Shown: positions 39,826 through 61,809 of the stretch, piece after piece
Position numbering within the stretch: position 1 is the first letter of the stretch
Layout of the letters: each line of letters begins with the position of its first letter
Made by a program: the position numbers and the translations under genes
NCBI RefSeq assembly: GCF_018613235.1
Contig: NZ_JAGGQP010000023.1
Coordinates: forward strand, 124,001-188,000
DNA from: Bacillus sp. ISL-41
GTDB lineage: Bacteria; Bacillota; Bacilli; Bacillales; Cytobacillaceae
Direction: 5' to 3'
DNA length: 64,000 nt
The notes under the pieces: generated by a model
The model's database searches: none
What the model was told of the DNA's origin: nothing
The model's input: the letters and a program-made list of their open reading frames with translations, nothing else

Positions 39826-41541
39826 ATGGATACAAATTATTCATTGTTAATTGAAGATGTAGGCCAAAATTTTACGCAACTATCCAAGAACACTATTGAT
39901 CTATTAAAAGAAAGTGGCGGCCCCTATGAAAAGTATGCTGATAAATTGGAAAGCGTTCTTGCTGAAGTGGAAGAAAATTCATTATTAAAGATCGCCTTAG
40001 TCGGCCAATATAGCGCTGGGAAATCATCGATCATCTCAGCATTGACAGGAAATAAAGAGATTAAGATAGATGCAGATATCGCGACAGATATCCCGCAAGA
40101 TTATTATTGGAACGGTGTTATACTTACAGACACACCTGGGCTATATACTGAAAGAAAAGACCATGATGCAAAGACATATGAAGCGATCAAATCATCAGAT
40201 TTATTGCTTTATGTTTTAACTAGCGATTTATTTGATGATATTGTATTAGACAATTTCATCAAACTGGCTTTTGAAGAGGCTTACAGGAATAAGATGATGT
40301 TAGTTGTAAATAAGATGTCCCTTGAACGTGGCGATTTTGATGTATTAAGAAAAAATTATATTGAGACTTTGGAAAATTCTCTTCAGCCTCACACTCTCGA
40401 GGAATTCAAACCTGTCTTTATAGATGCAGCAGATTATATTGAAGGTATTGAAGATGATTTTGAAGATTTAATTGAAACAAGCCATTTTGATGATTTGAAT
40501 ACGGCCATTAATCAATTTGTTTATGAAAAAGGGTTATTAGGGAAAATGGATACTCCGATTAGACAGGCGATATCTGAAATAGGAAAAGCCTTAACCGAAA
40601 ATGACACGGAGGGATCCAAGGAATTCTTCTTACTCCTTGAACGAATTGAAAATAGAGTAAAGCAAAGCATTGAAAAGTCACAAAACAACCTTAATTTCAT
40701 TACGAGTGACTTGCGTTCCGACATTGTCTCTCTAGGAAATCAATTGACATCAATGATTGGTGCAGAAAAAGTAGATTTTGAAGGGGAACAAAAAATAATC
40801 GAGGCGAAATTAAAAAAGAGGATAGAAGAGGCAAATAATGAATTAGAGGAAATGCTTAAGAACGAAAGGGATGAATTAACAAAACAAATACAAGATATAT
40901 TAGCAAGTGATTTAGCTGACTCTTTTTTTGCAAGTGTAGACATTGGATCTGAGCATATTAAAGCAGGTAACGTTAATATAAAAGATTTTTCTAACCTTCA
41001 TAAAAACTTTAAAGCTATCAATACAGTTGTAGAAAAAGCTACAGGCGGCATATTAAGGCTATCCACTAAAGGAGCTAGTGGCTTTGTGAAATCAACTGCC
41101 GTAAGTGGAACGGAACTTCATAAAGGTATTTATCAAGTAGGAAAGTTTTTTGGTCATTCCTTTAAGCCTTGGCAAGCTGTAAACGCAGCAAAATTTCTAA
41201 CGAATGTAGCTAAAGTAGCGGGTCCAATCCTCGCAGTAGCAGGAGTATTATTAGAAATTACAGGACATGTAAAAGAAGAACAAAATCTTGGAAAAGTTTT
41301 GCAAGCAAAAAACGAATGTTCTAGTTCATTTGTATCATTGGCTAAATCAACCCAGGAACAATTTCAGAAACAATTCGATGAATACAAGAATAATACCTAC
41401 AATTCAGTATTAGAAGAAATATCGAATCAACGGAAAGAAGCAACATTACAAAACCAGAATGTTTCTTCAATAAATCAGAAGCTTCAAGCCAATTTAAACC
41501 AATTTGAAGTACTGATCGAGAGGTTGGGAAGTTCAAACTAA
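39826..41541 (+). CDS. leoA: Dynamin-like GTPase, Eleos LeoA-type
   Basis: A 571-residue dynamin-family GTPase. P-loop GQYSAGKSS (60-68), switch threonine region IATDIPQ, DTPG (102-105) and NKMS (162-165) as G4 define the G domain. Residues about 250-375 form helical stalk and coiled coil. A glycine/alanine-rich amphipathic stretch (KFLTNVAKVAGPILAVAGVL, about 463-485) may contact membrane. Length and features agree with LeoA, described as a bacterial dynamin in E. coli and as half of Eleos in Bacillus. It forms an operon with the preceding gene. It should act as a membrane-remodelling or abortive-infection effector. Confidence 0.82.
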   Translation: MDTNYSLLIEDVGQNFTQLSKNTIDLLKESGGPYEKYADKLESVLAEVEENSLLKIALVGQYSAGKSSIISALTGNKEIKIDADIATDIPQDYYWNGVILTDTPGLYTERKDHDAKTYEAIKSSDLLLYVLTSDLFDDIVLDNFIKLAFEEAYRNKMMLVVNKMSLERGDFDVLRKNYIETLENSLQPHTLEEFKPVFIDAADYIEGIEDDFEDLIETSHFDDLNTAINQFVYEKGLLGKMDTPIRQAISEIGKALTENDTEGSKEFFLLLERIENRVKQSIEKSQNNLNFITSDLRSDIVSLGNQLTSMIGAEKVDFEGEQKIIEAKLKKRIEEANNELEEMLKNERDELTKQIQDILASDLADSFFASVDIGSEHIKAGNVNIKDFSNLHKNFKAINTVVEKATGGILRLSTKGASGFVKSTAVSGTELHKGIYQVGKFFGHSFKPWQAVNAAKFLTNVAKVAGPILAVAGVLLEITGHVKEEQNLGKVLQAKNECSSSFVSLAKSTQEQFQKQFDEYKNNTYNSVLEEISNQRKEATLQNQNVSSINQKLQANLNQFEVLIERLGSSN

Positions 41542-41919: not shown

Positions 41920-43809
41920 ATGTTTGCTCTATTTGAGAGTATTTATAACTGGATTAATAATATAGGATTAAATAGTTTTACAAGTGGGTTTCTTTTCTTT
42001 CAAGTTGCTTTTTTCGTAATGTATTTATTATTGCATTATTATATGGAAAAAGAAAATATCAAAGCGATGAAATACATTAGAACTGAATTAAATAATCTGG
42101 ATTCTTCTTTGAATATCAAAGAACTAAATAAGGAAATAAATAAGATCTTTGGAAAGTTAAAAGAAAACAATCCTTATCGAATGCAGTGGGAGCGTTATTT
42201 CAGTCGAGTGAGAAAAGAAAACTCGATTGATGAGAAAATTCGAGTAGAACCATTCTTCGGATATGATGTAATGCACGATACTCTTGGTAAAAGAAACATT
42301 TTAGATAACGGTAGTGGAATTCATGTTTCACTAGGGGTACTCGGAACCTTTATTGGATTGGCAATTGGGCTTTCTGGTTTAAATATGGCTGACCCTGATC
42401 TATTAAGAGAAGGGGTTTCGGGACTAATAGGTGGAATGAAGACAGCTTTTTACACATCTGTTTTAGGGGTAGTTTTTTCAATTCTATGGATATTTATAGA
42501 TAGTCTAATAACTCGTCAAAGAAATAAAGATATTGAGTGGCATATCAATAAGCTTCATTATTTCCTCAATGCTGACGACGAAGAAATTTTCTTGAATCGC
42601 CTGGAGAAGATTCAACAGCATCAGACTGAACAAATGAAAACGTTATTAACCGATGCTTTGGAAAAAGCGATGGTACCTTTTGTCCAAACTATTGAAAAAG
42701 GGAATCAAGAAATTACACATCAAATGAAAGAGCAAAATGAAACATCGCTTGAGCATCTGCATCTTATGAAAAATCAAAGTGAGGACATGGCTAACCGAAT
42801 TATGGATGGAGTAAGTGAGTCAATGAATGAATCGATTCATGAGTTCTCTCAAGTACTTCGTTTAGCTCAAGAAAATCAGGATCGAATGAATTCATTATTA
42901 GAAAATACAGTAGAACAATTTAATCAAGCTGCCGAATCAAATTCAAACATGATCCATAAAACAGAAAACATGGTTTCCACATTTACTAATCTTTCAGAAC
43001 AAATGGACGAAACACAGCGTAATTATTCATCTGCTCAAGAAAACTTATTAAATGCTATAAATGACATAGGAAATATCCAATCAATGATGGTTGAACATAC
43101 AGCAACACAAAAGGAAATGATTTCTCATCAGCAGAGCTTTATGTCTAAATCAGACGAGTTGGTGAATCAGTTCGTGGCCTTTGGAGACCGCATGGCAGAA
43201 GTTCAAAATTCTATGATTGAGACTTTAGTTGAAAAAACCGACATGGTTTCAAAGCGTTTCGAAGAATTATCGAACGAGCTTGTCGAAGCCTCCAATAATC
43301 AAAAAGAAGCTTCCAGAGATTCAGCTGATTTTATGGAGAGAGCAAAAGTTGCAATTGCCGAGCTTGTTCCGTTGAGCGAATCTCTAACGACTACAATCAA
43401 TGGTTTAAGTGAATTAGCTGAATCAATCGTGGAAATGAAGGATATGCAAGAAGAAATGATTCCAAAGCTGGACTCTTGGAATACAGCATTAGTTGAAGAT
43501 ATGCGTAGATTTATGACAGTAACTTCTGATCACTTAAATGGAGTGACACAGCAAACAAGATACTCAAGAGAACAGTGGGAATCTGCTGCCAAGCACTTTG
43601 AATCCATCAAAGATGAGCTTAATTCTACCATGATCAGCTTTAAAGATAATATGAATCAAGGTGTCAGCGAAACTTTTAAACTATTTGATGAAGAATTACG
43701 TGAGGCGGTTGTTCATTTCAAATTAATGGGTGAACAATACAAAAACTCAGTAGAACATTTAACAGAGTATGTCAATCAGATTGAAGAGAAGGTTGAGCAA
43801 GGCGTATGA
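41920..43809 (+). CDS. zorA: Zorya anti-phage protein ZorA (MotA/ExbB-like channel with long coiled-coil tail)
   Basis: A 629-residue inner membrane protein behind AGGGGGT. Hydrophobic helices lie at about 21-42, 133-154 and 173-197. The last two carry the MotA/TolQ/ExbB proton-channel signature (GVLGTFIGLAIGLSG and KTAFYTSVLGVVFSILW). From residue 210 to the end it is almost all coiled coil, the long cytoplasmic tail known from ZorA5B2 motors. With ZorB it should form a proton-driven motor that senses phage entry and recruits effectors. The stop overlaps the zorB start by four bases. Confidence 0.93.
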   Translation: MFALFESIYNWINNIGLNSFTSGFLFFQVAFFVMYLLLHYYMEKENIKAMKYIRTELNNLDSSLNIKELNKEINKIFGKLKENNPYRMQWERYFSRVRKENSIDEKIRVEPFFGYDVMHDTLGKRNILDNGSGIHVSLGVLGTFIGLAIGLSGLNMADPDLLREGVSGLIGGMKTAFYTSVLGVVFSILWIFIDSLITRQRNKDIEWHINKLHYFLNADDEEIFLNRLEKIQQHQTEQMKTLLTDALEKAMVPFVQTIEKGNQEITHQMKEQNETSLEHLHLMKNQSEDMANRIMDGVSESMNESIHEFSQVLRLAQENQDRMNSLLENTVEQFNQAAESNSNMIHKTENMVSTFTNLSEQMDETQRNYSSAQENLLNAINDIGNIQSMMVEHTATQKEMISHQQSFMSKSDELVNQFVAFGDRMAEVQNSMIETLVEKTDMVSKRFEELSNELVEASNNQKEASRDSADFMERAKVAIAELVPLSESLTTTINGLSELAESIVEMKDMQEEMIPKLDSWNTALVEDMRRFMTVTSDHLNGVTQQTRYSREQWESAAKHFESIKDELNSTMISFKDNMNQGVSETFKLFDEELREAVVHFKLMGEQYKNSVEHLTEYVNQIEEKVEQGV

Positions 43810-44477
43810 GAAGAAGACGGAAAGAAACAAATTACTGGATGAGTTACGCAGACTTAATGAGCGCGATGTTGATGGTATTTGTTTTGTTACTATCTGTGAT
43901 TATTCTTGATTATAAAAGTGATATGGATGAAAAGCAGCGTCAGATCGATGCGGTGACGAATGTAAAAAATAATATAATTGCAGATTTAACTGAAGAATTT
44001 AAAGGGTCTAATATGAATATTGAAGTTGATCCTCAGACGGGAGCTATACGATTTCCAGGGAATATCCTATATGAAGTCAATTCTTCAGACCTTTCACCAG
44101 AAGGAATCAAGTTTTTAAGAGAATTTGTTCCTAAATACTTCGGAATCATTTTACAAGAGAAGTTCAGAGAGGATATATCCTCCATTATTGTTGAAGGGCA
44201 TACTGACCAAGCTGGAAGTTACTTATACAATTTGGATTTATCACAAGCTCGAGCTTTTTCTGTTGTTCAAGAAATCTATGACGAAAACTTTGTGGACTTT
44301 CCTGAAAAGGATCTCTCTAAAGACTACTTAACTTCGAATGGTCGATCGTTTATGGTACCTATTAATAATCCTGACGGAACGTATAACCCTGATAAATCAA
44401 GACGTGTGGAATTCTTATTTCGTTTGAAAGAAGAAAAGCGAATTGAAGAGCTTCAAAAGTTGGTGAGTGAAGATTGA
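43806..44477 (+). CDS. zorB: Zorya protein ZorB (MotB/OmpA-like)
   Basis: A 223-residue protein. A basic N-terminus (MRRRRKETNYW) leads to a single helix YADLMSAMLMVFVLLLSVII in which Asp16 is the proton-carrying residue of MotB/ExbD-type subunits. After a coiled-coil linker, residues about 85-210 form an OmpA-like peptidoglycan-binding domain (IVEGHTDQAGSYLYNLDLSQ, ARAFSVVQEI, SRRVEFLF). It anchors the ZorA motor to the wall. ATGA overlaps join it to zorA. Confidence 0.93.
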   Translation: MRRRRKETNYWMSYADLMSAMLMVFVLLLSVIILDYKSDMDEKQRQIDAVTNVKNNIIADLTEEFKGSNMNIEVDPQTGAIRFPGNILYEVNSSDLSPEGIKFLREFVPKYFGIILQEKFREDISSIIVEGHTDQAGSYLYNLDLSQARAFSVVQEIYDENFVDFPEKDLSKDYLTSNGRSFMVPINNPDGTYNPDKSRRVEFLFRLKEEKRIEELQKLVSED

Positions 44478-45679
44478 GATATTTTTATAAACCAGTTCTT
44501 ATTACTGAATGGGTTGACCGTGAAATTAAAGAGAGACGTAGATTACCTTTCAATACAGAAAAATTCAGATCCTTAATTGCGGAACTTGAAGTTCAAACAA
44601 AAATATTGTTGGAAGAGTCTTTTGATCGTTTTAAAACTTGGCTAGATAGACTTAGTCCTGAGAAGTTGCTGGCTTTTACTTTTATCATTCCAAAAATCCA
44701 AAACATGATGGCGGTTCAATACCTCGTTCATAAGCTAAATCTTTTTTCTAAAAGGGACATGCGGGTATTTGATTACGCCCTTCATAGTACGTATCATAAC
44801 AATGTGTTTGATGAGACCTGGGATATCGCAAAGGAAGCTTATAGCGAGAGAAAAGAATCTATAACTTTAGGCTGGTCTAAAGATAAAATTCTGTTGTGGG
44901 ATCTTCTCATGGAAGATGGAAGACCGATTAGTAAACAAATACATCAATATGCGTCAAGGTATGAGTTTGATAAGCTCATAGAATTTTTAATGGTAGAAAA
45001 AGGCCATCTCTTTTACCAAGATTTATTATTTAACATGTTTGTTAATGGAACAACATCTTTATATAAAGCCTATCAAACTGAATTTATTGAGTATTTTAGA
45101 AGAGCGGATAACACCAAACGTCAAATGTTGGCGGAAGGGTTTATTCGTTCTCAATCATGTTATGAAGTCACGGATATTAGTGATGAGATCTTTAGTAAAC
45201 TCCAAACTCATGTGAAGTCTCCGATGAAATGGTTTGATGTAAGGCAAAAAGAAAAAGAAGAGTTTCATAGCTGGTATATGTCCAAAGAACTGTTTGATTT
45301 CTTTGGCGAAAATCGAGAAGGTGGAGAACGCTTTAAATACTGGAAAAAATACTCGCGCAGAATCCAACGGCTCATCCATTTACCTCATGATGCTACGATT
45401 TTCATGTACTTTAGTGATGTAGTAATCATCGAAAAAATGACAGGAGGAGCTATATATATTTATGACAGAAGCTGGTTCGATGACAAATTCGATGTGAAAG
45501 TTTCAATCTACGAACAATATTATAAACCTAATAGACCTGTACCGGGACCCTATAAAATTAATAGGAATGCTTTTATGGATACTACACTTAGTCACGATGA
45601 AGGTAGAATTAAACATTATTCAGGATGGCAAGAAGATGTTGATAAATACTTAAGAAATAAATTAGGTTGGGATGTGTAA
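44474..45679 (+). CDS. zorC: Zorya type I protein ZorC (EH-signature domain)
   Basis: A 401-residue soluble protein starting with TTG that overlaps the zorB stop (TTGA). It is mostly helical. The C-terminal end DEGRIKHYSGWQEDVDKYL has the H..xWQ pattern of the EH-signature domain named in Zorya type I systems. ZorC is required for type I Zorya defence and is thought to bind DNA together with ZorD. Identification rests on the C-terminal motif and on its fixed place between zorB and zorD. Confidence 0.9.
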   Translation: MRYFYKPVLITEWVDREIKERRRLPFNTEKFRSLIAELEVQTKILLEESFDRFKTWLDRLSPEKLLAFTFIIPKIQNMMAVQYLVHKLNLFSKRDMRVFDYALHSTYHNNVFDETWDIAKEAYSERKESITLGWSKDKILLWDLLMEDGRPISKQIHQYASRYEFDKLIEFLMVEKGHLFYQDLLFNMFVNGTTSLYKAYQTEFIEYFRRADNTKRQMLAEGFIRSQSCYEVTDISDEIFSKLQTHVKSPMKWFDVRQKEKEEFHSWYMSKELFDFFGENREGGERFKYWKKYSRRIQRLIHLPHDATIFMYFSDVVIIEKMTGGAIYIYDRSWFDDKFDVKVSIYEQYYKPNRPVPGPYKINRNAFMDTTLSHDEGRIKHYSGWQEDVDKYLRNKLGWDV

Positions 45680-45682
45680 AAA

Positions 45683-48343
45683 ATGGTCAGGATTTTTCAA
45701 CGATTCCAAACAAAAAAGTTAGAGATGTCGTTTCATTTAAATGGAACGGACATCTCTTTTCGTCTTTTTTTAGTCAGGGGGAAGGAACGTGATGAAATCC
45801 AAATGCCGATTCCACCTGACGCATATGGAGCCTATTTTGGTGTAGAGGGTTCAACGGAGTATGTCATTTATGAAGGATTGTCCGAGACGCAGTATTTTGA
45901 AGGCGGAAGATTGCCTGTCCATACCTACTATGATATTTTACATGATCGTGTGAAAATACAAGATGACCTAGAGCAAGAGGTCTATGCTGGATACGAAATA
46001 GATTTAAAAGAAGACCTTGCTGCTTTAAGTCTCCCAATAGTTGAAGAGCACCTGCAAGTTTTTATTCAAATGACGGGGTTATCAGGACAACAGCCAGAAT
46101 TTAAAGTGACATTGAAAGACACAAAAGGTGAGAATGTCGAATTCGAATGGGATATTGAAGGTCCTTTCTTAAGAAAAAAAGACGAAGTTAAATTACTTTC
46201 AGAAGGAATATGGCAATTGTTTCAAGTCATTCATTCCGAGATAGAAGATCCTTATGAAAAGATCGCTCGCGTCCAGCACCTTGCAAAGAAATATAATTTT
46301 ACACTAGATGACTTTCTAACAAGAGAAAAATATACCTTTGTTGATGGAATTGAACTTGAACCTAAACTGATAGATGAAGATACACTAAAGCTTGAGATTA
46401 AAACAGATGATGCCACTGCAGATCAATTAGTCGAGCAAAATCAGTTAAATGCTAGTATTAAAAAGGGTGATACAAGGCAACGAGTAAGGTTTGCGCCGAG
46501 AGTAGTTGAAGATATAAAGAAAATTAAACAAAAACAAGTTTTAAGAGGGGAAGAGATCCCTCAATTCGCTGAGAATCCCCACGCTTTTTTTGGAGATGCT
46601 ACATTCTCATTTAATCTTGAAGACTTCTCTGAGCGAGTAAAAGGTTATGTTGTCATTCAACGTGTGCACTATTCTGTAGTAAACGGAAAACGAGTTTGGT
46701 TTAATACAGAGTCGGGTCAGCCGGTTGAAATGGATGAAGATGAAATGCGTAATCAGGTTGCCCGCGAACCGGATAAACTCTTTTACAAACAGAACAATAC
46801 ATACTTTTATTTAGACAAAAAAGCAAAGCAAGAACTAGGGTTTGTGGAGCAGGAGGAGAAACAGACCAAAGAAAAGATAGCTTTGGAAATTCTAAAAAAT
46901 GAAGATGAATTGGAATTTAGCAAAGCCGGAACTGGTGAAAAGCGGTATAAATCCTATCCAATACCAGAGGGATTAAAAGCCAATCTTTTTGACTATCAAA
47001 AAGAAGGGTTCTTTTGGATGGCTAGTCTTGCTGAAGCTGGGAGCAATGGGCTGTTGGCAGATGACATGGGGTTAGGAAAGACGATGCAAGTAATAACTTT
47101 CTTACTTCATAGGGAGAGTCAGGGTCAACTTGCACCGACCTTAATCGTTTTGCCTAAAGCGCTTATCAATAACTGGAAGAATGAAATTGCAAAGTTTGCC
47201 CCATCGCTATCTCCATTTGTGTATATCCATAGTGGACCATCACGTCATCGAACGAAAGCGGAGCTAGAAAAAGAGAAAATTATACTAACTACATATGACA
47301 CATTAAAGGGTGACCAGTTCGTTTTCGGACAAGTTGATTTCCAGAATCTAATAACGGATGAAGCGCAGAATGCGAAGAACTATGGCTCTGCTCGGTCATT
47401 AGCGTTACGTGCTATGAAAGCGAAGTTCAGACTTGCTATGACTGGGACTCCGGTAGAAAACTCACTCGAAGAACTTTGGGCGATTATGGACTTTGTTGAA
47501 CCTGGAGCATTCTCGTCACTGGCGGATTTCAGAAAGCGTTATGTGAAAGAGGTAAATACAGAGGAGTTACGTAAGTTGTTGCAGCCTTATTATCTTCGAA
47601 GAACGAAAAAAGAGGTTCTTGCAGATAAGTTGCCAACAAAGCATATTAAGGAGCCATATTATCTTAGCGCCTCACGCATACAGCAGCAATTAGCTGCATC
47701 CATTGTTTCTGCCAGAAGCGGTAACCAAGCAAATATGTTAACGGCCTTAATGAATTTAAGACAAGCCTATGGACATCCATCAGCAGTTAATGATGATATA
47801 GAGCCATTAGTAAAGCACTCTCCAAAGCTTCAGAAAGTATTAGAACTACTAGAAACGGTCCAGAAACAGCAGGAAAAAGTATTGATATTTACGGAGTTCC
47901 GAAAACTACAGTCCATTCTGAAAGTAGAGATCACAAAGAAATTTAAAATACATGTTCCTATTATTGATGGAAGTACAGATAATAGAGCGGGCGTGGTAGA
48001 AGAATTTAATCACTTAGAAGGTTTCCAAGTAATGATTTTGTCGCCTAAAGCAGCAGGTGTTGGACTAACAATTACAAGTGCTAACCACGTGATTCATTTT
48101 ACACGGTGGTGGAATCCAGCTGTTGAAAATCAGGCCACTGACCGAGCTTATCGAATTGGCCAAGAGAGAGATGTATATGTATATCATTTAATTACCCAAG
48201 ACCCAGGAAACTTTCCGAATGGAACAGTAGAAGAGATAATGCATCAGATACTGATCGATAAGTCAGAGTTGGCAGAAGACGTCATAGTGCCATTTAATAC
48301 GAAGAAGATGCAGAGTGAAGTTTGGGAGAGTGTTAAGAGGTAA
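45683..48343 (+). CDS. zorD: Zorya type I protein ZorD (SNF2-type helicase/nuclease)
   Basis: An 886-residue SNF2-family ATPase. Residues 1-420 form N-terminal beta-rich and helical domains, including the long linker KTKEKIALEIL. The helicase core has LFDYQKEGFFWM (motif Q), ADDMGLGKT (459-467, motif I), TDEAQ (D559-Q562, motif II), MTGTPVEN (motif III), and late motifs SPKAAGVGLTITSANHVIH and ATDRAYRIGQ. ZorD carries the DNA-attacking activity of type I Zorya. It starts three bases after zorC. A hairpin terminator lies at 48522. Confidence 0.93.
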   Translation: MVRIFQRFQTKKLEMSFHLNGTDISFRLFLVRGKERDEIQMPIPPDAYGAYFGVEGSTEYVIYEGLSETQYFEGGRLPVHTYYDILHDRVKIQDDLEQEVYAGYEIDLKEDLAALSLPIVEEHLQVFIQMTGLSGQQPEFKVTLKDTKGENVEFEWDIEGPFLRKKDEVKLLSEGIWQLFQVIHSEIEDPYEKIARVQHLAKKYNFTLDDFLTREKYTFVDGIELEPKLIDEDTLKLEIKTDDATADQLVEQNQLNASIKKGDTRQRVRFAPRVVEDIKKIKQKQVLRGEEIPQFAENPHAFFGDATFSFNLEDFSERVKGYVVIQRVHYSVVNGKRVWFNTESGQPVEMDEDEMRNQVAREPDKLFYKQNNTYFYLDKKAKQELGFVEQEEKQTKEKIALEILKNEDELEFSKAGTGEKRYKSYPIPEGLKANLFDYQKEGFFWMASLAEAGSNGLLADDMGLGKTMQVITFLLHRESQGQLAPTLIVLPKALINNWKNEIAKFAPSLSPFVYIHSGPSRHRTKAELEKEKIILTTYDTLKGDQFVFGQVDFQNLITDEAQNAKNYGSARSLALRAMKAKFRLAMTGTPVENSLEELWAIMDFVEPGAFSSLADFRKRYVKEVNTEELRKLLQPYYLRRTKKEVLADKLPTKHIKEPYYLSASRIQQQLAASIVSARSGNQANMLTALMNLRQAYGHPSAVNDDIEPLVKHSPKLQKVLELLETVQKQQEKVLIFTEFRKLQSILKVEITKKFKIHVPIIDGSTDNRAGVVEEFNHLEGFQVMILSPKAAGVGLTITSANHVIHFTRWWNPAVENQATDRAYRIGQERDVYVYHLITQDPGNFPNGTVEEIMHQILIDKSELAEDVIVPFNTKKMQSEVWESVKR

Positions 48344-48817: not shown

Positions 48818-50284
48818 ATGATTACGGGAGAATTAAAGAATAAAGTTGATAAAGTCTGGGAGACATTCTGGACAGGTGGAATAACCAATCCTTTAACTGT
48901 TATTGAACAGTTTACATATTTGTTGTATATCAAGGGCCTAGATGATAACGAAAAGAAAAAAGAAATGGATGCAGAACTTTTAGGTATAGAACACGAAGGT
49001 ATCTTCCCACAAGATAAGCCGCAGTTACGTTGGTCTATTTTTTCAAATATGGGTCCGGATGAAATGTTTAAGGTGGTTTCACAGGAGGTTTTCCCATTCA
49101 TCAAAGGACTAGGTGGGAAAGGTACTGTTTACTCTAAATTTATGAAGGATGCTATTTTTGTAATTCCTACACCATCTCTCTTAGCAAGAGTTGTTGCAGG
49201 AGTAAATGGGTTAATGCAAGCCAGTAATCCAGATGGTAAAAAGGATACTCTTGGGGATTTATATGAGTATTTACTATCAAAACTTTCTACAGCTGGTACT
49301 AATGGTCAATTTAGAACACCACGGCATATCATTGATATGATTGTTAAATTAATGAAGCCAACACCTGAAGATATTATAGTAGATCCGGCAGCAGGTTCAG
49401 CAGGATTTCTTGTTTCTGCTGGAGAGTACTTAAAAGAAAATCATAGTGATATGTTCCTAGTTCAAAGTCTGAGGGAGCATTTCAATCAAAAAATGTTCCA
49501 CGGGTTTGAGATGGATGGAACAATGCTCCGAATCGGTGCGATGAATATGATGCTTCACGGAGTAGATAATCCTAATATAGCTTACCGTGACAGCTTGTCC
49601 GAGCAGAATAAGGATACTGAGCAATATACACTTGTTCTGGCAAATCCACCTTTTAAAGGTTCATTAGATTATGACTCCGTATCTGACGACCTTCTAAAAA
49701 TAACAAAAACCAAAAAGACCGAGCTATTATTTTTAGCATTATTTATTAGAATGCTTAAAAAAGGTGGAAGGGTTGCTGTTATTGTTCCAGATGGTGTCCT
49801 ATTCGGTAGTTCTAATGCACATAAATCTATTCGAAAAGAAATAGTAGATAAGCATAAATTAGAAGCTATTATTTCAATGCCGTCAGGAGTATTTAAACCT
49901 TATGCAGGAGTTTCAACAGCAATAATGATTTTTACAAAAACAGGTGCAGGTGGAACCGAAGATGTTTGGTTCTATGATATGAAAGCAGATGGTTACTCTT
50001 TAGACGATAAACGAAATCCAATCGATGCAAACGATATTCCAGATATTTTGGCTAGATTTAGTGACTTAGATAATGAAAAGGCAAGAAATCGTGCAGAACA
50101 ATCGTTCTTTGTTGCTGTAGATGAAATTCGTAAAAATGGCTATGAGTTGTCTATTAATAAATATAAAGAGATTGAGTACGAAGAATTGGTATATGAGAAA
50201 CCAGAAATTATTATTACCAAAATTAAAGAGCTAGAAGAAGAAATATTAACAGGGTTATCTGAACTTGAAAAAATAATTATATAG
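48818..50284 (+). CDS. hsdM: Type I restriction-modification DNA methyltransferase (HsdM)
   Basis: A 488-residue N6-adenine methyltransferase subunit, with GAGGTG seven bases before the ATG. An N-terminal helical HsdM_N domain (about 8-140) precedes the catalytic domain. Motif I DPAAGSAGFLV starts at D189 and motif IV NPPF is at 276-279. The FRTPRHIIDMIVKLMKP segment before motif I and the GRVAVIVPDGVLFG strand are typical. It methylates the adenine in a bipartite site set by HsdS. It leads the hsdM-hsdS-hsdR operon. Confidence 0.95.
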   Translation: MITGELKNKVDKVWETFWTGGITNPLTVIEQFTYLLYIKGLDDNEKKKEMDAELLGIEHEGIFPQDKPQLRWSIFSNMGPDEMFKVVSQEVFPFIKGLGGKGTVYSKFMKDAIFVIPTPSLLARVVAGVNGLMQASNPDGKKDTLGDLYEYLLSKLSTAGTNGQFRTPRHIIDMIVKLMKPTPEDIIVDPAAGSAGFLVSAGEYLKENHSDMFLVQSLREHFNQKMFHGFEMDGTMLRIGAMNMMLHGVDNPNIAYRDSLSEQNKDTEQYTLVLANPPFKGSLDYDSVSDDLLKITKTKKTELLFLALFIRMLKKGGRVAVIVPDGVLFGSSNAHKSIRKEIVDKHKLEAIISMPSGVFKPYAGVSTAIMIFTKTGAGGTEDVWFYDMKADGYSLDDKRNPIDANDIPDILARFSDLDNEKARNRAEQSFFVAVDEIRKNGYELSINKYKEIEYEELVYEKPEIIITKIKELEEEILTGLSELEKIII

Positions 50285-50300
50285 ATTGAGGATTTATAAA

Positions 50301-51452
50301 ATGATAAAAGTGAGACTAGGAGATTACGTAGAGATTGATAGTGGCTTTGCTTTTAAATCAAAGTTATTTAATGAAAATGAAGGTATACCAATAATTAGGA
50401 TCAGAGATGTTAATTCTGGGAAATCAAATACATACTATTCTGGAGAATATTCAGAGAAGTATGTTGTTAATAATGGAGATTTTTTAATTACAATGGATGG
50501 CGAATTTAAAATAAGAGAATGGTTAGGTGGTAAAGCCCTACTTAATCAACGGGTATGTAGAATTAAAAGTAAAACGTTAATGTTAAATGAGAGGTATCTG
50601 TTATATCTTCTCCCTAAAGTATTAAAAGATATCGAAGATAAGACACCTTTTGTTACAGTAAAACATTTATCTGTTAAGGATATTGTAGACAGTTTAGTGT
50701 ATATTCCAAACATTACTATCCAAGACAAAATAGTTGAAGCTTTAGATATTGCCAAATCTTTAGTAGACAAACGAAAAGCTCAAATAGCAGTTTTATCTAC
50801 TCTGACACCAAGCGTGTTTTTAGAGATGTTCGGAGACCCAATTCTAAATAATAAAAAATGGGAAATTATAGACTTTCAAGAGGTAATTAATGAAATACGT
50901 TATGGAACATCAACACCTCCAACATTTTCTGATGATGGATTTATGTTTATAAGGGCAACTAACATAAAAGAAGGTAAAGTTCTTAAGAAGAATATGCTTT
51001 TTATTAGTAACGAAGAAGCTAGTAAAATTCAGAAGTGTAAATTATGCTTTGGTGAAATTATTTTCGTAAGAAGTGGAGTTAATTCAGGTGATAACGCAGT
51101 AATTACTGAAGAATTTGTGGGGCACTATGGAGGATACGATATAATCGTAAGCTTAAATGAGGATAAGGTGAACCCTTTTTATTTAAATACCTTTTTTAAT
51201 TCTAATTACCTTGAGGTAATTATTAAGCCATTAACTAGAAGAGCTGGGCAACCACATTTAAATGCAGACCAAATAAAAAGTTTAAAGATCCAATTGCCGC
51301 CATTGGATATTCAGAATAAATTTGTAAAGCTATATAATAAAGTAGAATTACAACAAACATTATTAAAAAGTAGTTTGGAACAATTAGAAAATAACTTCAA
51401 TTCTCTTCTGCAACGGGCATTCAATGGCGAATTATTTAGTAATTTAAACTAA
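50301..51452 (+). CDS. hsdS: Type I restriction-modification specificity subunit (HsdS)
   Basis: A 383-residue protein from ATG 50301 (GAGG upstream), 16 bases after hsdM. It holds two target recognition domains: the first from VRLGDYVEIDSGFAFKSKLF to about 150, the second from about 190 (VINEIRYGTSTPPTFSDDGF) to about 345. Each is followed by a helical spacer (IVEALDIAKSLVDKRKAQI and NKFVKLYNKVELQQTLLKSS). The QPHLNADQIKSLKIQLPPLD motif is typical of the second half. It decides the DNA site for both modification and cleavage. Confidence 0.93.
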   Translation: MIKVRLGDYVEIDSGFAFKSKLFNENEGIPIIRIRDVNSGKSNTYYSGEYSEKYVVNNGDFLITMDGEFKIREWLGGKALLNQRVCRIKSKTLMLNERYLLYLLPKVLKDIEDKTPFVTVKHLSVKDIVDSLVYIPNITIQDKIVEALDIAKSLVDKRKAQIAVLSTLTPSVFLEMFGDPILNNKKWEIIDFQEVINEIRYGTSTPPTFSDDGFMFIRATNIKEGKVLKKNMLFISNEEASKIQKCKLCFGEIIFVRSGVNSGDNAVITEEFVGHYGGYDIIVSLNEDKVNPFYLNTFFNSNYLEVIIKPLTRRAGQPHLNADQIKSLKIQLPPLDIQNKFVKLYNKVELQQTLLKSSLEQLENNFNSLLQRAFNGELFSNLN

Positions 51453-51489
51453 TTAATATAATCAGACCACTCTTTAGGGAGGAATTCAC

Positions 51490-54400
51490 TTGTTAAGAAA
51501 TTTTGAGTTTTTAAGGGAAAAAGCTCAATTTAGCGGTTTTTCAAATGCTTGCTTGGAGGCAGAAAAAAGCCTTCAAGTTAGCCCTGCAACCTGTGCAATT
51601 TTGACCAGACGGGCGTTGGAGCTATCAGTAAAATGGTTATATGCTTCCGATAGAGAGTTAAGAGTACCCTATCAAGATAACTTGTCTAGTTTAATTCACG
51701 AGCCAACATTCAAGTCAATTATAGATGAAGACCTTTTTCCATTATTGAAGTACATCATAAAGCTGGGAAATGTTGCGGTTCACACTACTTCTTCTATTAC
51801 AAGGGATGAGGCTGTATTAGCATTACATAACCTTCATCAATTTATTGATTGGTTAGATTACTGTTACTCAGATAATTATTCCGAGTCGGAGTTTAAAGAA
51901 GAACTTCTTTTAACTGGAGACGAGCCAAGAAAAAGACCCGATGAATATAAAGAGTTATATGATAAATTGAGCTCCAAAGACCGAAAGCTTGAAGATTTGA
52001 TGCGTGAAAATGAGGAAATGCGTAAGGTCTTAACTGATAAACGTATTGAAAACACCGAACAATACAATTTCCAAGTTGACGAAATTTCTGAACTCCAAAC
52101 TAGGAAGATCTATATTGATTTAGAACTTAAGTTAGCTGGTTGGGAGTTTGGAAAAAATGTTATTGAAGAATATCAAGTTTCCGGTATGCCGAACAGTCAA
52201 AATATAGGATTTGTGGATTATGTTTTACTTGGTGATAATGGGAAACCTATAGCAGTCGTGGAAGCGAAGAAAACCTCCTATGATGCTAATAAAGGAAAGC
52301 AACAAGCAAAGTTATATGCAGACTGTATTGAGCAAATGCACGGTCAAAGGCCGATTATCTTCTACACTAATGGATTTGATATCCGGCTTTGGGATGATGT
52401 GAATTACCCTGAGCGGAAAGTATCTGGATTTTATACTAAGTCAGATCTTCAACTATTAATTGATCGTCGGACAATTCAAAGACCATTAGTGGATATTGAA
52501 ATTAAAGAGGAAATCTCAAACCGTTATTATCAAAAAGAAGCTATCCTTGCCGTTTGTGAAGCTATTCAATCAAAACAACGAAAAGCACTCTTAGTTATGG
52601 CTACTGGAAGCGGAAAAACAAGAACGGCTGTATCGCTGGTTGATGTTTTGGTAAGACATAACTGGGTGAAAAATGTGTTGTTCCTAGCGGATAGAACGGC
52701 TTTGGTATTACAAGCAAAGAAAAACTTTAATAACCTCCTCCCAAGTATGACTCTTTGTAATTTGCTTGATAACAAAGATAATCCTGAATTAAGCAGGATG
52801 GTATTTTCGACATATCCCACGATGATGAATGCCATTGATGATACTAAACGAAAAGACGGTAATAAGCTTTTTACTGTTGGACACTTCGATTTAATCATTG
52901 TTGATGAAAGTCACCGGAGTATATATAAAAAATTTCGGGCAATCTTTGAGTACTTTGATGCCACCTTATTAGGATTAACGGCCACTCCAAAAGATGAAAT
53001 TGATAAAAATACTTACGATATTTTCGGCTTAGAAACTGGTGCCCCTACTTATGCATATGAACTTGAACAAGCAGTAAAAGATGGTTATCTAGTTGAGTAC
53101 CGAACATTTGAAGCTTCTTCAAAAATCTTAGATGACGGTCTCCGGTATGATGAATTATCTGATGAAGAGAAAGAACAATTTGAAGATACCTTTGATGAAG
53201 AAGAAGGCGAAGAGATAAGCAACTCTGCTGTTAATCAGTGGTTATTTAATGACAATACTATTGATCAAGTGTTAAATGATCTTATGGAAAAAGGAATTAA
53301 GGTTGAGGGTGGAGATAAGCTAGGAAAGACCATTATCTTTGCTAATAATTCCAAGCACGCTAAACGTATCGTTGAACGATTTAATCAGATATATCCGCAA
53401 TACAATGGAAAGTTTGCTGCTCAAATTGACTATAAAGTTGATTACGTACAAACTCTTATTGATGATTTTTCAACAAAAGATAAATTTCCGCAGATTGCAG
53501 TATCGGTTGATATGTTAGATACCGGAGTAGACATTCCAGAGGTAGTAAACCTGGTATTTTTCAAAAAGGTTCGCTCAAAATCAAAGTTTTGGCAGATGAT
53601 TGGCCGAGGTACTCGCCTGTGTCCGAATCTGTTTGGTGTTGGTGAGGACAAAGAATTCTTTTTAATATTTGATTATTTAAGAAACTTTGAGTTTTTTAGA
53701 GAAAACCAAAAAGGAATTGAAGGGAAAACTTCAGTTGGTTTAACCGAACGTATCTTTAATTTGAAGGTAGATATTATAAAAGAACTTCAGGCACTCGATT
53801 TTCAAGAGGAACCTTATATTCGGCACCGTAAAGAATTAATTGAAGATGTGTACGAAGAGATTAGTCGGCTAAATGATGAAAATTTCCAAGTAAGAATGCA
53901 CCTACAGTATGTTCACAAATATAAAAACCGGGAGAATTGGCAAGCTCTTAGCGTTACGAATGTAAGTGAAATTCAAGAGCATATCTCTCCGCTAATCCTT
54001 TCCATAGTGGATAATGAACTAGCAAAGCGATTTGACAGCGTAATGTATTCCATTGAACTTGCAAAACTAACCGCCAAGAATGCAGGTAGGCCAATTAAAA
54101 GTGTAGTTCAAACAGCCGAAGAGCTTTCTAAGCTAAGTACCATCCCTCAAGTGAATGCCAAAAGAGACATTCTCTTAAAGGTACAGACTGATGTATTTTG
54201 GGAAGAAGCCAATATTTTTGAACTTGAAGAAGTGCGTGAAGCTATACGTGAGTTGGTTAAATTCTTAGAAAAAGAAAGCCAAAAGGATTATTTCACAAAT
54301 TTCAAGGATAACTTTACAATAATTGGTGAAGGTGAAACACCTTTTTACGGCTCAAATGATTTGCAAAATTACCGTAAGAAGGTCAATCAATACTTAAAAG

Positions 54401-54834
54401 AACATCAAGATCAAACAGCGATATATAAGCTGCGATATAACAAGCCACTTACCAGACAAGATATAGAAACTCTTGAAGGCATCTTGTGGAATGAACTAGG
54501 AACCCAGGATGACTATAAGAAAGAATTTGGTGATACCCCTATAACCAAACTCGTTAGGCAGATAGTTGGCCTTGATCAGCAGGCTGCAAATGAGGCATTC
54601 TCAGAGTTTCTAAATGAAGAAAAGCTGAATGTTAACCAACTACGATTCGTAAAACTCATTATTGATTATGTTGTGAAGAACGGAACTCTTGAGAAAAAAG
54701 TATTACAAGAAGATCCATTCCGAGCTCTAGGCAGCGTAACTGAGCTGTTTAGGGATAATATTGATGATGTAAGAGGGATTATAAGAATCATTGATACGAT
54801 TAATCGTAATGTTGAAGAGTATGAAGGGGCTTAA
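51490..54834 (+). CDS. hsdR: Type I restriction enzyme subunit R (HsdR) with DUF4145 N-terminus
   Basis: An 1114-residue protein starting TTG behind GGGAGG. An N-terminal DUF4145 domain (about 1-125) and coiled coil are followed by the nuclease domain with D243 and E258-A-K260 (IAVVEAKKT). The SF2 motor has ATGSGKT (371-377), DESHRS and LLGLTATP, then a [20 protein letters not shown] motif V/VI region. The C-terminal 300 residues match EcoEI-type R C-terminal helical domains. It translocates DNA and cuts unmodified targets. It is the last gene of the operon; a terminator follows. Confidence 0.95.
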   Translation: [1114 protein letters not shown]

Positions 54835-54856
54835 GGGAAAAAATGGAATATGCTCA

Positions 54857-54891
54857 AGAGACCCAGCTATTAAAGCTTGGGTCTTTTTTTT
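54857..54891 (+). terminator. Terminator of the hsd operon
   Basis: AGACCCAGCT and AGCTTGGGTCT pair with one bulge, followed by TTTTTTT. Confidence 0.8.
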
Positions 54892-55123
54892 ACAAAATTA
54901 TTAAATGTTGCCGGTAAGAAAGCGTGAATAGATTTATCAAATAAACAAAATATATAGTGGTTGCCCTTGTATTTCTTTTTAATATCATTTCTATATTTTT
55001 CCTTATTATAATGTAAAATAGAAATTATGGTAAAACTCTATTTTCAAAAGGCATTTTTTCAGGGTACTAATTATTCTAGTTTGATAGATATCGTAGTATC
55101 TAGTTTGAGTGGAGGTAGATATA

Positions 55124-56935
55124 ATGCAAAACAGTTCAATGAAGCTTGAATATAATATCAATGGTATAGGGATAATTACTCCTGTTATATACAATTTCCC
55201 TAAAGGCCTTTACCAAAATAAAAATCTTAATCTTGAGAGAAAATTAAGAGATACTAACCAATTAGGAGCAATAAGATATATTCATAATGGAGCACATTAT
55301 ACAAGATATGAATATGTATTATTACAATATATGCTATTAAATTTTATTCAGAAAAACAGTGAGATAGGATTAGGATCTAAAATTAATTTTAAATCTTGGG
55401 GATTAAATAAAGAATTAATGTATGAAGAAAAAATATCAGCTGCTGAAGTTATTGAACTAATTGTTTTATTTGCTAATATGGGCCATTTTAAGGATACATT
55501 TTCGAGTAATAAAGTTTGGTTCCATTATATTTTAGAAAACCATTATGGAGTGAAAAATGGGTTAAAAAAGGGATTAAGTAGTGAGGGGAAAAAGCTGTTA
55601 GATAAACTTCTGGAAAATTTGGATTATCAAAAAATACAATGGTTAAATGCTTTGTATATGTTAAGCAGGACAAGTGAGTTAGAAGACTATAGAGTTATTT
55701 GCGAAAAGATTGTAAAAAACATTTTGTACAACGAAAATGATAAATGGATGGATCTTTATAACAAAATCAGAAAAGTTTCATATATAGTTCTTGATAGCCA
55801 TTTTTCATATATACCAATTGAAATTAGCTTGCAAAATGTTTTATTTAATCATAGTTTGTTTATAGACGAAATTCTAAAAAATAATTCAAATCTATTTGGC
55901 ACTTTAGAACGTATTAACGAATTATTAGAAGATACTTTATATCTAGAAAATAACGCTTTACTAGTAGGAACATATAGAAGTATAGATATTCATAAAAAGT
56001 TGAATGAGTTCCTAAATAGTAATGAGGATTTAAAAGAAGTAGCTAAAATTAACAAATTAATATTAGATATTAAAGAATCGCCATTATATGAGGAATCACA
56101 TATTATTGAAAATGAAATACCTTGGAATAAAGAAAAAAATCTAAGCCTAACATTTAGAATTAAAGAACGAAGAGGTTTCCCGGTAGATGTTTTTAAAAGG
56201 GAAATGGAGATACTAAAAAAGTTGGGAAACGATATCTATATAGGTTTTAACTTTTCTCCAAGCTTCGAGAAATACAGAACTGTTTATTCATTAAGCAAAA
56301 AATTGAGTGGCAAAAAACTATTAAATAAATGCCTCAGCATACTATCTCAAGGGGTAGATGATTATTTAGAGTATAAACATTTTTCTTTAAAAGAAGTTAA
56401 TAATGGACCATTGATAGATGTGGTTACTAAAAAGATAATTACATATTTATTTAGAAATATATTAAGGAATGATTATTTCTGCGAGTATAATTACTCAAAT
56501 AAATTATGTCCATTTATTTTGGAAATAGGAAGCAAGAAGGCTTTAAGTAAATTAGATTTATATATAGGAGAGTTTAAAAAAATCTTTCCTGATGATAAGG
56601 ATGGCTTACACGAGTTGTCTGCTCTAAGGCATAGAGTAAGTAATATTAACTATAAAGGGCTAACGATAGTTTATGCTGGATCATTAAGGTTTATAGATAG
56701 TAATAAGAAGGCTGTCTGTGAATTAGATGGGCTAATTTTAACTCCAAAAAACAAAAAGAAGTATTTAGAGGTAATAGAAGCTAAAAATCTCAGCATTAAA
56801 AGTCAAAGGAAAACTGTTGCGATGAAACAATTAAGAGAAAAGTTTTTGCCTATAATTGCTGATAGTATGGTTGAAGATACTGAGGTTAAAGAAATTGATA
56901 ACTTTGGAGCCTATGTGGATTTAATGAGGAAATAG
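55124..56935 (+). CDS. Unrecognised defence-island protein: degenerate HD domain plus PD-(D/E)XK-like C-terminus
   Basis: A 603-residue protein from ATG 55124 behind GGAGGT. Residues 38-130 follow the N-terminal pattern of dGTPase/SAMHD1-like HD proteins: LRDTNQLGAIRYIHNGAHYT then RYEYVLL where the family has TRFEHS, and VLFANMGHFKDTF where it has LLHDIGHxPFSH. Both metal-binding positions are altered (H to Y in RYEY, HD to AN in FANMGH), so it should not hydrolyse dNTPs. Near the end, ELDGLILTP (D535) and LEVIEAKN (E552, K554) fit a PD-(D/E)XK nuclease core, followed by a long basic helix. The middle 350 residues are helical. It has its own transcription unit after the hsd terminator and is very AT-rich. 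Confidence 0.6.
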   Translation: MQNSSMKLEYNINGIGIITPVIYNFPKGLYQNKNLNLERKLRDTNQLGAIRYIHNGAHYTRYEYVLLQYMLLNFIQKNSEIGLGSKINFKSWGLNKELMYEEKISAAEVIELIVLFANMGHFKDTFSSNKVWFHYILENHYGVKNGLKKGLSSEGKKLLDKLLENLDYQKIQWLNALYMLSRTSELEDYRVICEKIVKNILYNENDKWMDLYNKIRKVSYIVLDSHFSYIPIEISLQNVLFNHSLFIDEILKNNSNLFGTLERINELLEDTLYLENNALLVGTYRSIDIHKKLNEFLNSNEDLKEVAKINKLILDIKESPLYEESHIIENEIPWNKEKNLSLTFRIKERRGFPVDVFKREMEILKKLGNDIYIGFNFSPSFEKYRTVYSLSKKLSGKKLLNKCLSILSQGVDDYLEYKHFSLKEVNNGPLIDVVTKKIITYLFRNILRNDYFCEYNYSNKLCPFILEIGSKKALSKLDLYIGEFKKIFPDDKDGLHELSALRHRVSNINYKGLTIVYAGSLRFIDSNKKAVCELDGLILTPKNKKKYLEVIEAKNLSIKSQRKTVAMKQLREKFLPIIADSMVEDTEVKEIDNFGAYVDLMRK

Positions 56936-57482: not shown

Positions 57483-58256
57483 GTGATTAAGGAAAAAATT
57501 ACTCAAATTAAATCGTATTTAAAAATGATACCAAAGAATCAACAAGTTGCAGAGGATTTGGATTATTTTACTTTTTTAGCTATATTAATTCCTGTTCCAG
57601 GATACCAACAGGCTGCTCTATTAATTAATAAGTTAGCTGCAAACCATAATTTGAATTTATTAATAACTGAATTACGTGATAGTATTTATCAAACTAATAC
57701 ACGTATATCTACAATAGAAAATGATATAGAAAAAATACAATTAATGGCATCTACCGTTTCTGCTGTATCAGCATTAGATGAAAGTATTAATTTAATTCTT
57801 GAACAAGCACAACAAGAGTTACCTTCTGAGTTTATTGTTGAAACAGAGAATTGGAGTACACAAACTATAATTGATCAAATTATTAATGCAGACTTTACAT
57901 CAGTCTCAGCCAATAATAACAGCCATAATCGGTTGCAAAACGTCGAAATTAACTCTCGACGTACTCATTTACTTGCGACCGATCACTCATCAAATTTCTT
58001 ACAAGGTACTCATTTCAAAGATTCCACAGGCACTGTTGGTATAAATGGTATTACGCAACAAGGAAACATACAAGTTACAGGGAACTCCGTAGGATTTGGT
58101 AAAGGTGGTACCTTAATTTTCGGAAACCCGAATGAAGTAAACGGAAAATGTCCTACTTGTAATAATGTTATTGTTGCAGACAGAATTGAACTACAACGAT
58201 ATTCCCGTATTCAATGTCCACAATGTAAAAATATATTTAACATTAACATACATTAA
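57483..58256 (+). CDS. Unrecognised protein with C-terminal zinc ribbon, at the end of the defence island
   Basis: A 257-residue protein starting GTG behind GGGGGGATC. Residues 1-110 are helical (KSYLKMIPKNQQVAEDLDYF and a coil TNTRISTIENDIEKIQLMAS). The middle (about 155-215) is polar with short repeated strand-turns (GTHFKDSTGTVGINGITQQG, NIQVTGNSVGFGKGG) like a small beta-helix. The last 40 residues hold a zinc ribbon: CPTC and CPQC. Such helical-linker-ribbon proteins are seen as regulators or adaptors, but I do not recognise a family. Its position after the HD/PD-(D/E)XK gene and its low GC suggest it belongs to the island. A terminator follows at 58505. Confidence 0.6.
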   Translation: MIKEKITQIKSYLKMIPKNQQVAEDLDYFTFLAILIPVPGYQQAALLINKLAANHNLNLLITELRDSIYQTNTRISTIENDIEKIQLMASTVSAVSALDESINLILEQAQQELPSEFIVETENWSTQTIIDQIINADFTSVSANNNSHNRLQNVEINSRRTHLLATDHSSNFLQGTHFKDSTGTVGINGITQQGNIQVTGNSVGFGKGGTLIFGNPNEVNGKCPTCNNVIVADRIELQRYSRIQCPQCKNIFNINIH

Positions 58257-60615: not shown

Positions 60616-61809
60616 TCATTTTTTGTTTTTCTGAATATCCAAGCAAACTTCATAGAAGATTCTCTCTAAATGAATTCGCTCTTCAACATCTGTCATTAGC
60701 TCACTAATACGGTTAAAGGCTTTGATAATATGTAAGGAATTATCAATAATTTTTTCTTGTTGAAGTGTCTTTAGAGATTTTTTGGTTTCCTTAGAGAATT
60801 TCTCTCTAGAGCGAGCTATCTTTTTGAAAATCGAATATATCCTATCCTCAGTTAGATATGGTGTTTCAGCAATTGCCATAACAAGATTTTTAACCCTGTT
60901 TTGAAATGGATCTAAGCTCTTTAGATTCAATAATTTTTCCTTTACACCATTGATTGAACTATCGTGTCTGATAGTTAATATAGGTTCTGATCCATCTGGA
61001 ATTGCTCCGAACTCGTCTCCCTCATCATCTTGTATACGAAACCGAAGTTCAATAGAAAATGTTTTTTCTTTGATTTCATTATTAATTAATATTACTCCAA
61101 AGTATAACTTGCCAATTCCAATAATATTTACTGGCCGTACTTGATCAAACATCACTACAATTTCAGAATCACTCAAATACGCCTTCTCTAAAGTAAACCA
61201 TTGATGTGTTTCAATGGCATGTAGATGAAGTGTGTATAATGTTAAATAGAGTGCAAGGTGGTTATCATAATTAACATACCTCAAAGAAGTAGTTCCTCTA
61301 ATGTACCATTGGTTGTTGTCTTTTATTAGTCTGTACTGAAGACTCTTATCTGGATAAACCGAACATAGGCGCCTAATGTTATATAACAAAGTATCAAAAT
61401 GCCCATTTTCTATACAGAAACTAGAGAATTTACCCATATTAAACAAGGTATCTAGGTACTCATAAGTGAAACGGTATATACCCTCTGCAAATAAATCTTG
61501 ATCATTCTTAAAAACTATGGATAATTGGTTATTATCATTGAAATTTTCGATTTCTATATTAACTAAAGCCTCCGGAATATCCAACTTTTCATTATCGATA
61601 TCACTAAAATTCTTAATCAGTACCTCACTACCTTCAATCCAAAGATAAGGTCCAGAAGCAAGCTCAAGTACATTAAGAGGAAATTCCTGAAAAACTTGTT
61701 CATCGATATTTCTTTCTTTTTTTATGAGAGATTCACACGATTTTAAAGTAGCCGGAGAAGAAGGTAAGTTAAAACCGTTTAGTTGTATTTCATGAATGTA
61801 TTTCCCCAA
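60616..61809 (-). CDS. Hypothetical protein
   Basis: A 397-residue soluble protein starting TTG, with AGAGGGGAG eight bases upstream. It is a mixed alpha/beta protein with charged loops: YGTTSLRYVNYDNHLALYLT-type segment (RGTTSLRYVNYDNHLALYL), a beta region FSIELRFRIQDDEGDEFGAI, then a helical end rich in Lys and Glu (RSREKFSKETKKSLKTLQQE). The last 90 residues are predicted coil and helix. No family recognised. It lies 20 bases downstream of the YdjM-like gene, so they form an operon. Moderate to low GC. Confidence 0.7.
   Translation of the reverse strand: MGKYIHEIQLNGFNLPSSPATLKSCESLIKKERNIDEQVFQEFPLNVLELASGPYLWIEGSEVLIKNFSDIDNEKLDIPEALVNIEIENFNDNNQLSIVFKNDQDLFAEGIYRFTYEYLDTLFNMGKFSSFCIENGHFDTLLYNIRRLCSVYPDKSLQYRLIKDNNQWYIRGTTSLRYVNYDNHLALYLTLYTLHLHAIETHQWFTLEKAYLSDSEIVVMFDQVRPVNIIGIGKLYFGVILINNEIKEKTFSIELRFRIQDDEGDEFGAIPDGSEPILTIRHDSSINGVKEKLLNLKSLDPFQNRVKNLVMAIAETPYLTEDRIYSIFKKIARSREKFSKETKKSLKTLQQEKIIDNSLHIIKAFNRISELMTDVEERIHLERIFYEVCLDIQKNKK

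Follow-up and report, generated by a model that had tools for sequence, protein, structure and literature searches.

A putative defence protein of Bacillus sp. ISL-41 joining an HD dNTPase-like part with replaced metal ligands to a PD-(D/E)XK-like domain

What might a protein do that resembles an HD-type dNTP triphosphohydrolase with metal ligands replaced at one end and a PD-(D/E)XK nuclease at the other, and whose gene lies among phage-defence and restriction genes? This question is raised by a gene at 55124..56935 on the forward strand of the window, that is, the whole 64,000-nucleotide stretch of contig NZ_JAGGQP010000023.1 of Bacillus sp. ISL-41 that was analysed here. The gene is read as encoding a 603-aa pseudo-HD/PD-(D/E)XK-like protein on the basis of the ORF itself and of sixteen related loci. 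The ORF is intact, running from an ATG at 55124 to a stop that ends at 56935 with no internal stops, and a Shine-Dalgarno sequence (GGAGG, 55111..55115, +), read directly, suits this start; an upstream GTG at 55109 was rejected as start, since the GGAGG fits the ATG instead. We propose, at slightly less than an even chance, that the product is a single-protein defence factor in which a pseudo-dNTPase sensor gates a PD-(D/E)XK nuclease. The predicted two-domain architecture of the family is well supported, and we infer the ligand, the sensing, the gating, the nuclease activity and the protection against phage.

The family was assembled from our own searches because Pfam, NCBIfam, PADLOC and the PDB gave nothing significant. 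The window protein belonged to no significant family in Pfam (hmmscan), PADLOC or NCBIfam and had no match in the PDB by sequence (phmmer), and none of the system protein models of PADLOC-DB 2.0.0 matched it; its resemblance to HD dNTPases was invisible to hmmscan and phmmer and appeared in profile-profile comparison only. Its Pfam matches to DM_Arn (E 0.031) and WSN (1.8) fell below the cut-off, as did the best Pfam match among 14 family members, Lpg0393_VPS9 (E 0.015), and the PDB sequence matches 5cw6 (E 0.68) and three chains (E 1.4-7.8) were set aside as chance. Pfam and PADLOC were searched with the 14 members, one of which weakly matched PDC-M38B (0.0054), and NCBIfam with the window protein only. 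The initial annotation, made from the sequence alone, knew of no described system with this pair of domains, and the literature that we searched, which was thin on subscription papers, likewise yielded no protein or system in which a pseudo-HD part is paired with a PD-(D/E)XK domain.

The folds of both ends were assessed by hhalign profile-profile comparison, with targets built from fetched sequences and column-shuffled targets as the null. At the N-terminus, residues 30-140 (55211..55543, +) scored 38.0 against an 11-sequence HD dNTPase profile (P 4.9e-5; 0/60 shuffles as high, maximum 21.0), and residues 22-262 scored 38.1 (0/60, maximum 22.8). With a narrower HD profile the N-terminus gave 29.7 against a shuffle maximum of 20.0, and 30.0 against 24.2, and the full length gave 28.2 against 26.6, a thin margin. 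At the C-terminus, residues 480-603 (56561..56932, +) scored 24.2 against HSDR_N_2 (P 0.0019; 0/60, maximum 14.4) and 17.2 against Mrr_cat, a bare margin over its 60 shuffles (none as high, maximum 17.0); the positive control, in which the known PD-(D/E)XK profiles Mrr and HSDR_N_2 were compared with each other, scored 35.8. The hhalign probabilities are modest, at 67.7% for HD, 14.1% for HSDR_N_2 and 1.8% for Mrr_cat. Among the wrong-domain controls, the C-terminus scored 9.2 against HD (39/40 shuffles as high), the N-terminus 8.1 against Mrr (38/40) and 12.7 against HSDR_N_2 (3/40), and the middle region 10.5 against Mrr (15/40), 13.4 against HSDR_N_2 (1/40) and, as residues 262-440, 18.4 against HD (0/40, but P 0.12). 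The shuffle null must be regarded as lenient, because the middle-region controls against HD and HSDR_N_2 lie near or above the shuffles; the two main scores, for HD and HSDR_N_2, stand well above these same controls. Residues 262-440 may represent the rest of the dNTPase body, with a signal too weak to use. An HD-dNTPase-like N-terminus is thus well supported, resting on profile comparison and short of proof, and a PD-(D/E)XK-like C-terminus is supported by motif and profile together, less strongly than the HD case and also short of proof.

Within the first 140 residues, the window protein shares with the HD dNTPases of the SAMHD1, EF1143 and YwfO type the elements QLG ... [ST]-R-[FYW] ... G-H, in the same order. 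Its motifs (L41-R-x3-Q46-L-G ... H58-Y-T-R-Y-E-Y64 ... L115-F-A117-N118-M-G-H121-F) were put by the aligner onto QLG...EHSRFNH...LLHDLGH of the YwfO-type HD dNTPase of the same genome, to which the closest solved structure is EF1143 (PDB 4lrl). In the available text of the source, the ligand motif of HD phosphatases is given as H ... HD ... D and the metal ligands of EF1143 as H66, H110, D111 and D183 (PMC8177086). Three of these four positions, so defined, read Y64, A117 and N118 in the window protein. By alignment, the Tyr64 codon (55313..55315, +) takes the position of H66, the first His that binds metal, and is Tyr in 14/14 covering rows; the Ala117-Asn118 codons (55472..55477, +) stand in the place of the His-Asp pair, H110-D111, with Asn in 15/15. 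Where HD dNTPases read R-F-x-H, all 14 covering rows read R-[YFW]-[ED]-Y, and the H-D-x-G-H of the dNTPases is N-x-G-H in all 15, preceded by A, G, Y or S. dNTPases have a second active-site His (SAMHD1 H215), whose place, counting from GH, is taken by Phe126 here and by Leu at locus L133. The four viral contigs of the family were retrieved with two peptide patterns, one of which includes N-x-G-H. Their rows therefore lend no independent weight to this motif, and relatives with an intact HD would have been overlooked by that pattern, which played no part in finding the other twelve loci. The initial annotation had likened this N-terminal pattern to SAMHD1/dGTPase-type HD proteins with the His of TRFEH and the HD pair replaced; the profile score bears out the likeness, and the replacements prove to be family-wide. 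For the fourth ligand, R-K-V-S-Y-x-x-L-D (216-224) resembles by eye the dNTPase D-R-M-D-Y-x-x-R-D, which would place Arg216 at the ligand Asp, and the profile test of this region was unsupportive; we do not claim this reading because 8 and 10 of 60 shuffles scored as high.

Since defining ligands are missing, the members of this family are not counted among the HD dNTPases as enzymes, and they may well be built on the HD dNTPase fold, to which they add the C-terminal nuclease-like domain. It could be argued that the protein is still an active HD enzyme that uses unusual ligands (Tyr, Asn, GH) or acts on another substrate, in view of the fact that N118, G120, H121, T125 and F126 vary little or not at all across the family and that the domain is under purifying selection. 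This is highly improbable in our estimate, given that three of the ligands listed for HD phosphatases in the available part of PMC8177086 are replaced in every covering row and that the second active-site His is also lost. As for selection, L007 against L017 gave a dN/dS of 0.114 overall (0.071 for residues 1-260, 0.204 for residues 261-430 and 0.112 for residues 431-end), L007 against L008 gave 0.108 overall (0.314 in 1-260, on seven changes only) and L023 against L022 gave 0.113, and the three other pairs of the six were saturated overall, with 0.085 to 0.132 for residues 1-260. Values near 0.1 in three unsaturated pairs indicate that the dead HD domain is maintained by selection and is not decaying.

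The C-terminal motif reads E533-L-D535-G ... V550-I-E552-A-K554-N in the window protein. The D...ExK motif, from Asp535 to Lys554 (56726..56785, +), was pointed out in the initial annotation and turns out to be kept in 17/17 covering rows, those of L018, L024 and L026 being taken from alignments. In the HSDR_N_2 alignment D falls on D and ExK on ExK, a feature shared with the HSDR_N_2/Mrr-type PD-(D/E)XK nucleases, from which the family differs in having no Pfam match, in its marginal Mrr_cat score and in the pseudo-HD part to which the domain is joined.

The family comprises 17 loci, the window included, with L007/L008 and L022/L023 as near-duplicates. Searched with a single sequence, 397 genomes of the window's order gave three matches, its own included; the two homologues are 57-58% identical to the window protein, and in this search nine further genomes listed from its genus gave none. 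Other single-sequence searches with the window protein returned neither a family nor a homologue. The three-sequence alignment search found Salirhabdus euzebyi, Rossellomorea vietnamensis, Thalassobacillus devorans and Halobacillus karajensis, with 6 of 398 phylum genomes matching, own included, and the nine-sequence alignment search matched four viral contigs. With a viral member as query, plasmids yielded a homologue from Peribacillus, whose protein led in turn to an ORF on a Priestia plasmid that covers the C-terminal part only. Phage records held no family match, a repeat search of viral contigs returned the same four, and further genome searches (1/59, 1/29 and 1/3 genomes matched, all already known) added no new member; locus L002 (G124, E 0.006) was not counted as one. 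Twelve of the sixteen further loci belong to the window's own phylum, to which the whole-genome profile searches were confined, and the other four are the viral contigs. The family is rare and patchy: the single-sequence search found it in 3/397 genomes of the order, and two members lie on plasmids and four on viral contigs. In a 12-row tree, a Bacillaceae group is separate from one made up of the four viral-contig members and L012, the Peribacillus row having a long branch and an unsure placement. At L019 (9147-13530) the member gene is split by genes that resemble, by eye, an IS66-type element.

In the window, Pfam and PADLOC place a type I RM system directly upstream of the gene (48818..54834, +; hsdM 48818-50284, hsdS 50286-51452, hsdR 51490-54834), and further upstream PADLOC places a type I Zorya system with zorA, zorB, zorC and zorD (41920..48343, +), confirming the neighbours named in the initial annotation. 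That annotation had also put the gene in its own unit. This is probably so, because a terminator-like hairpin with a U-rich 3' side (54856..54887, +), found by folding, sits in the 289-bp gap after hsdR; the hairpin has a predicted stability of -16.9 kcal/mol (z -3.36, 0/200 shuffles as stable). A consensus scan, by contrast, listed no terminator, and promoter-like sites were not above chance (17, against 18.4 in shuffles).

The initial annotation had implied a role in phage defence, and a survey of the homologues' neighbourhoods agrees in finding them often near defence genes: at least 9 of the 17 loci have a strong defence match no more than about 10 kb away, a plain count with no random-locus baseline and a lower bound, because the remaining seven loci had flanks scanned only in part. 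Besides the window with Zorya and type I RM, these loci carry DrmA and DrmB (L007), hsdM/hsdS (L018), HaeIII RM and SIR2-HerA (L019), an Eco57I-type enzyme (L023), an hsdR-like gene and McrBC (L024), hsdMSR (L025), PDC-M01AB with a PtuA-like gene (L133), and PbeA and PbeC (L134). L005 is a weak case, with DUF4435-AAA, a sub-threshold Mrr_cat and PDC-M54A, and at eight of the 17 loci the flank portions scanned contained no strong defence gene. One flanking protein each was scanned at L006 and L017 and two for the L007/L008 type of pair, and for L020, L021, L022 and L026 the flanks were run in blastp against one another and against the ORFs of the window.

Several of these neighbours are restriction genes, and they bear on two other explanations. 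In the first, the protein is itself a restriction enzyme, modification-dependent (type IV-like) or sequence-recognising, in which the pseudo-HD part docks on DNA, with an unusual base as one possible target, and brings the nuclease into position without any soluble nucleotide signal. The restriction genes that adjoin or lie near the gene in the window (hsdR) and at L018, L019, L023, L024 and L025 would suit such an enzyme, which we nevertheless hold to be rather unlikely, given that no known DNA-reading domain was matched and that the other neighbours are varied (DrmAB, PtuA-like PDC-M01, Pbe), as fits a general island gene. In the second, the protein is an accessory to the neighbouring RM system that cuts DNA on which the R subunit has stalled, or that protects against restriction. 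An RM gene is the direct neighbour at four of the 17 loci (the window, L018, L023 and L025), and at L019 that position is taken by a gene that looks Vsr-like by eye, beside the HaeIII RM. We consider such a role quite improbable, as the RM types vary from one locus to the next, as none was seen at several, and as the terminator-like hairpin parts hsdR from the gene in the window. On the viral contigs L023 and L025, the homologues and their restriction genes lie near phage capsid-like and primase-like genes, as judged by eye.

The flanks also bear on the view that this is a cellular protein outside defence, acting for example in repair or nucleotide metabolism, or that the fold assignments are wrong, which we judge to be very unlikely. 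The profile signals are modest, no strong defence neighbour was seen at eight of the 17 loci in the portions scanned, and two homologues sit beside a HATPase/DUF4325 pair; this has to be set against the family's rarity and patchiness by single-sequence search of the order, its presence on plasmids and viral contigs, and the several loci that are rich in defence genes. At these two loci, L007 (8595-9787) and L008 (8594-9786, -), the HATPase and DUF4325 STAS-like proteins are encoded upstream of the homologue and on the opposite strand. The L007 and L008 homologues are near-identical yet occur in different genera, and the HATPase of L008 is read as two shorter ORFs.

Sensor-gated defence nucleases are already known. 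The initial annotation had suggested a dead HD domain that senses a nucleotide or nucleic acid and drives a nuclease. We likewise favour a receptor joined to an effector for the present protein because the core with its replaced metal ligands is conserved, the nuclease motif is conserved and the loci are patchy and near defence genes. In this reading the N-terminal part, roughly residues 20-260 and perhaps more of the chain, would derive from an HD-superfamily dNTP triphosphohydrolase that lost metal ligands and kept its core. It would now be a sensor or switch that responds to an infection-induced change in a dNTP-like nucleotide or in single-stranded DNA. Binding of the ligand would release the C-terminal PD-(D/E)XK nuclease, which would then cut DNA of the phage, the host or both. 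Our more specific proposal, which is tentative, is that the stripped dNTPase fold senses a phage-altered nucleotide pool or single-stranded DNA and directly triggers the joined nuclease with no diffusible messenger or partner. A pseudo-dNTPase as the sensor of a defence nuclease was not found in the literature searched.

Parts of such a mechanism have precedents, described here from the available text of each source. The pseudo-HD domain of RelA is a conserved HD domain that has lost its catalytic residues and regulates the catalytic domain to which it is joined, the synthetase (PMC8012599); it differs from the present family in that it belongs to the ppGpp hydrolase branch of HD proteins, has a synthetase as partner and serves the stringent response (PMC8012599). 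Another precedent is Clover, whose CloA is a defence dGTPase that responds to dTTP (PMC12265719). As an HD dNTPase relative found in defence islands, CloA is a precedent for sensing of infection via the dNTP pool, and its active-site mutant H126A/E129A still holds dGTP in cryo-EM (PMC12265719). CloA keeps its HD motif, destroys dGTP and has a nucleotidyltransferase partner (PMC12265719), whereas the family described here has a dead HD site and a joined nuclease-like domain. An intact HD motif of the CloA type, as far as the source defines it, was absent in 15/15 covering rows, and a Pfam scan of ten neighbours in the window showed no nucleotidyltransferase, the flanks of the other loci having been scanned in part. 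The allosteric sites of SAMHD1, for their part, accept oligonucleotides (PMC7854603).

Known defence HD enzymes deplete dNTPs through a live active site; the pseudo-HD family suggests that the fold itself may act as a receptor. If this is true, bacterial sensing of phage-induced changes to the nucleotide pool becomes testable in one protein. The present study also adds a family with no significant match in Pfam or PADLOC (14 members) or in NCBIfam (window protein).

Other genes at these loci may be recorded here. Upstream of Zorya, the window encodes a dynamin-like protein that matches PADLOC LeoA (39826-41541; E 2e-105). Downstream of the pseudo-HD gene lies a 257-aa ORF (57483-58256) with no Pfam or PADLOC match, which ends in CPTC...CPQC, by eye a likely zinc ribbon, and a 397-aa ORF on the reverse strand (60616-61809) also has no match in Pfam or PADLOC. 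On the Priestia megaterium plasmid (L134, 8058-8516), the C-terminal domain occurs alone as a short ORF that adjoins a DUF6602 protein matching NucC-type nuclease models; PbeA and PbeC are encoded close by.
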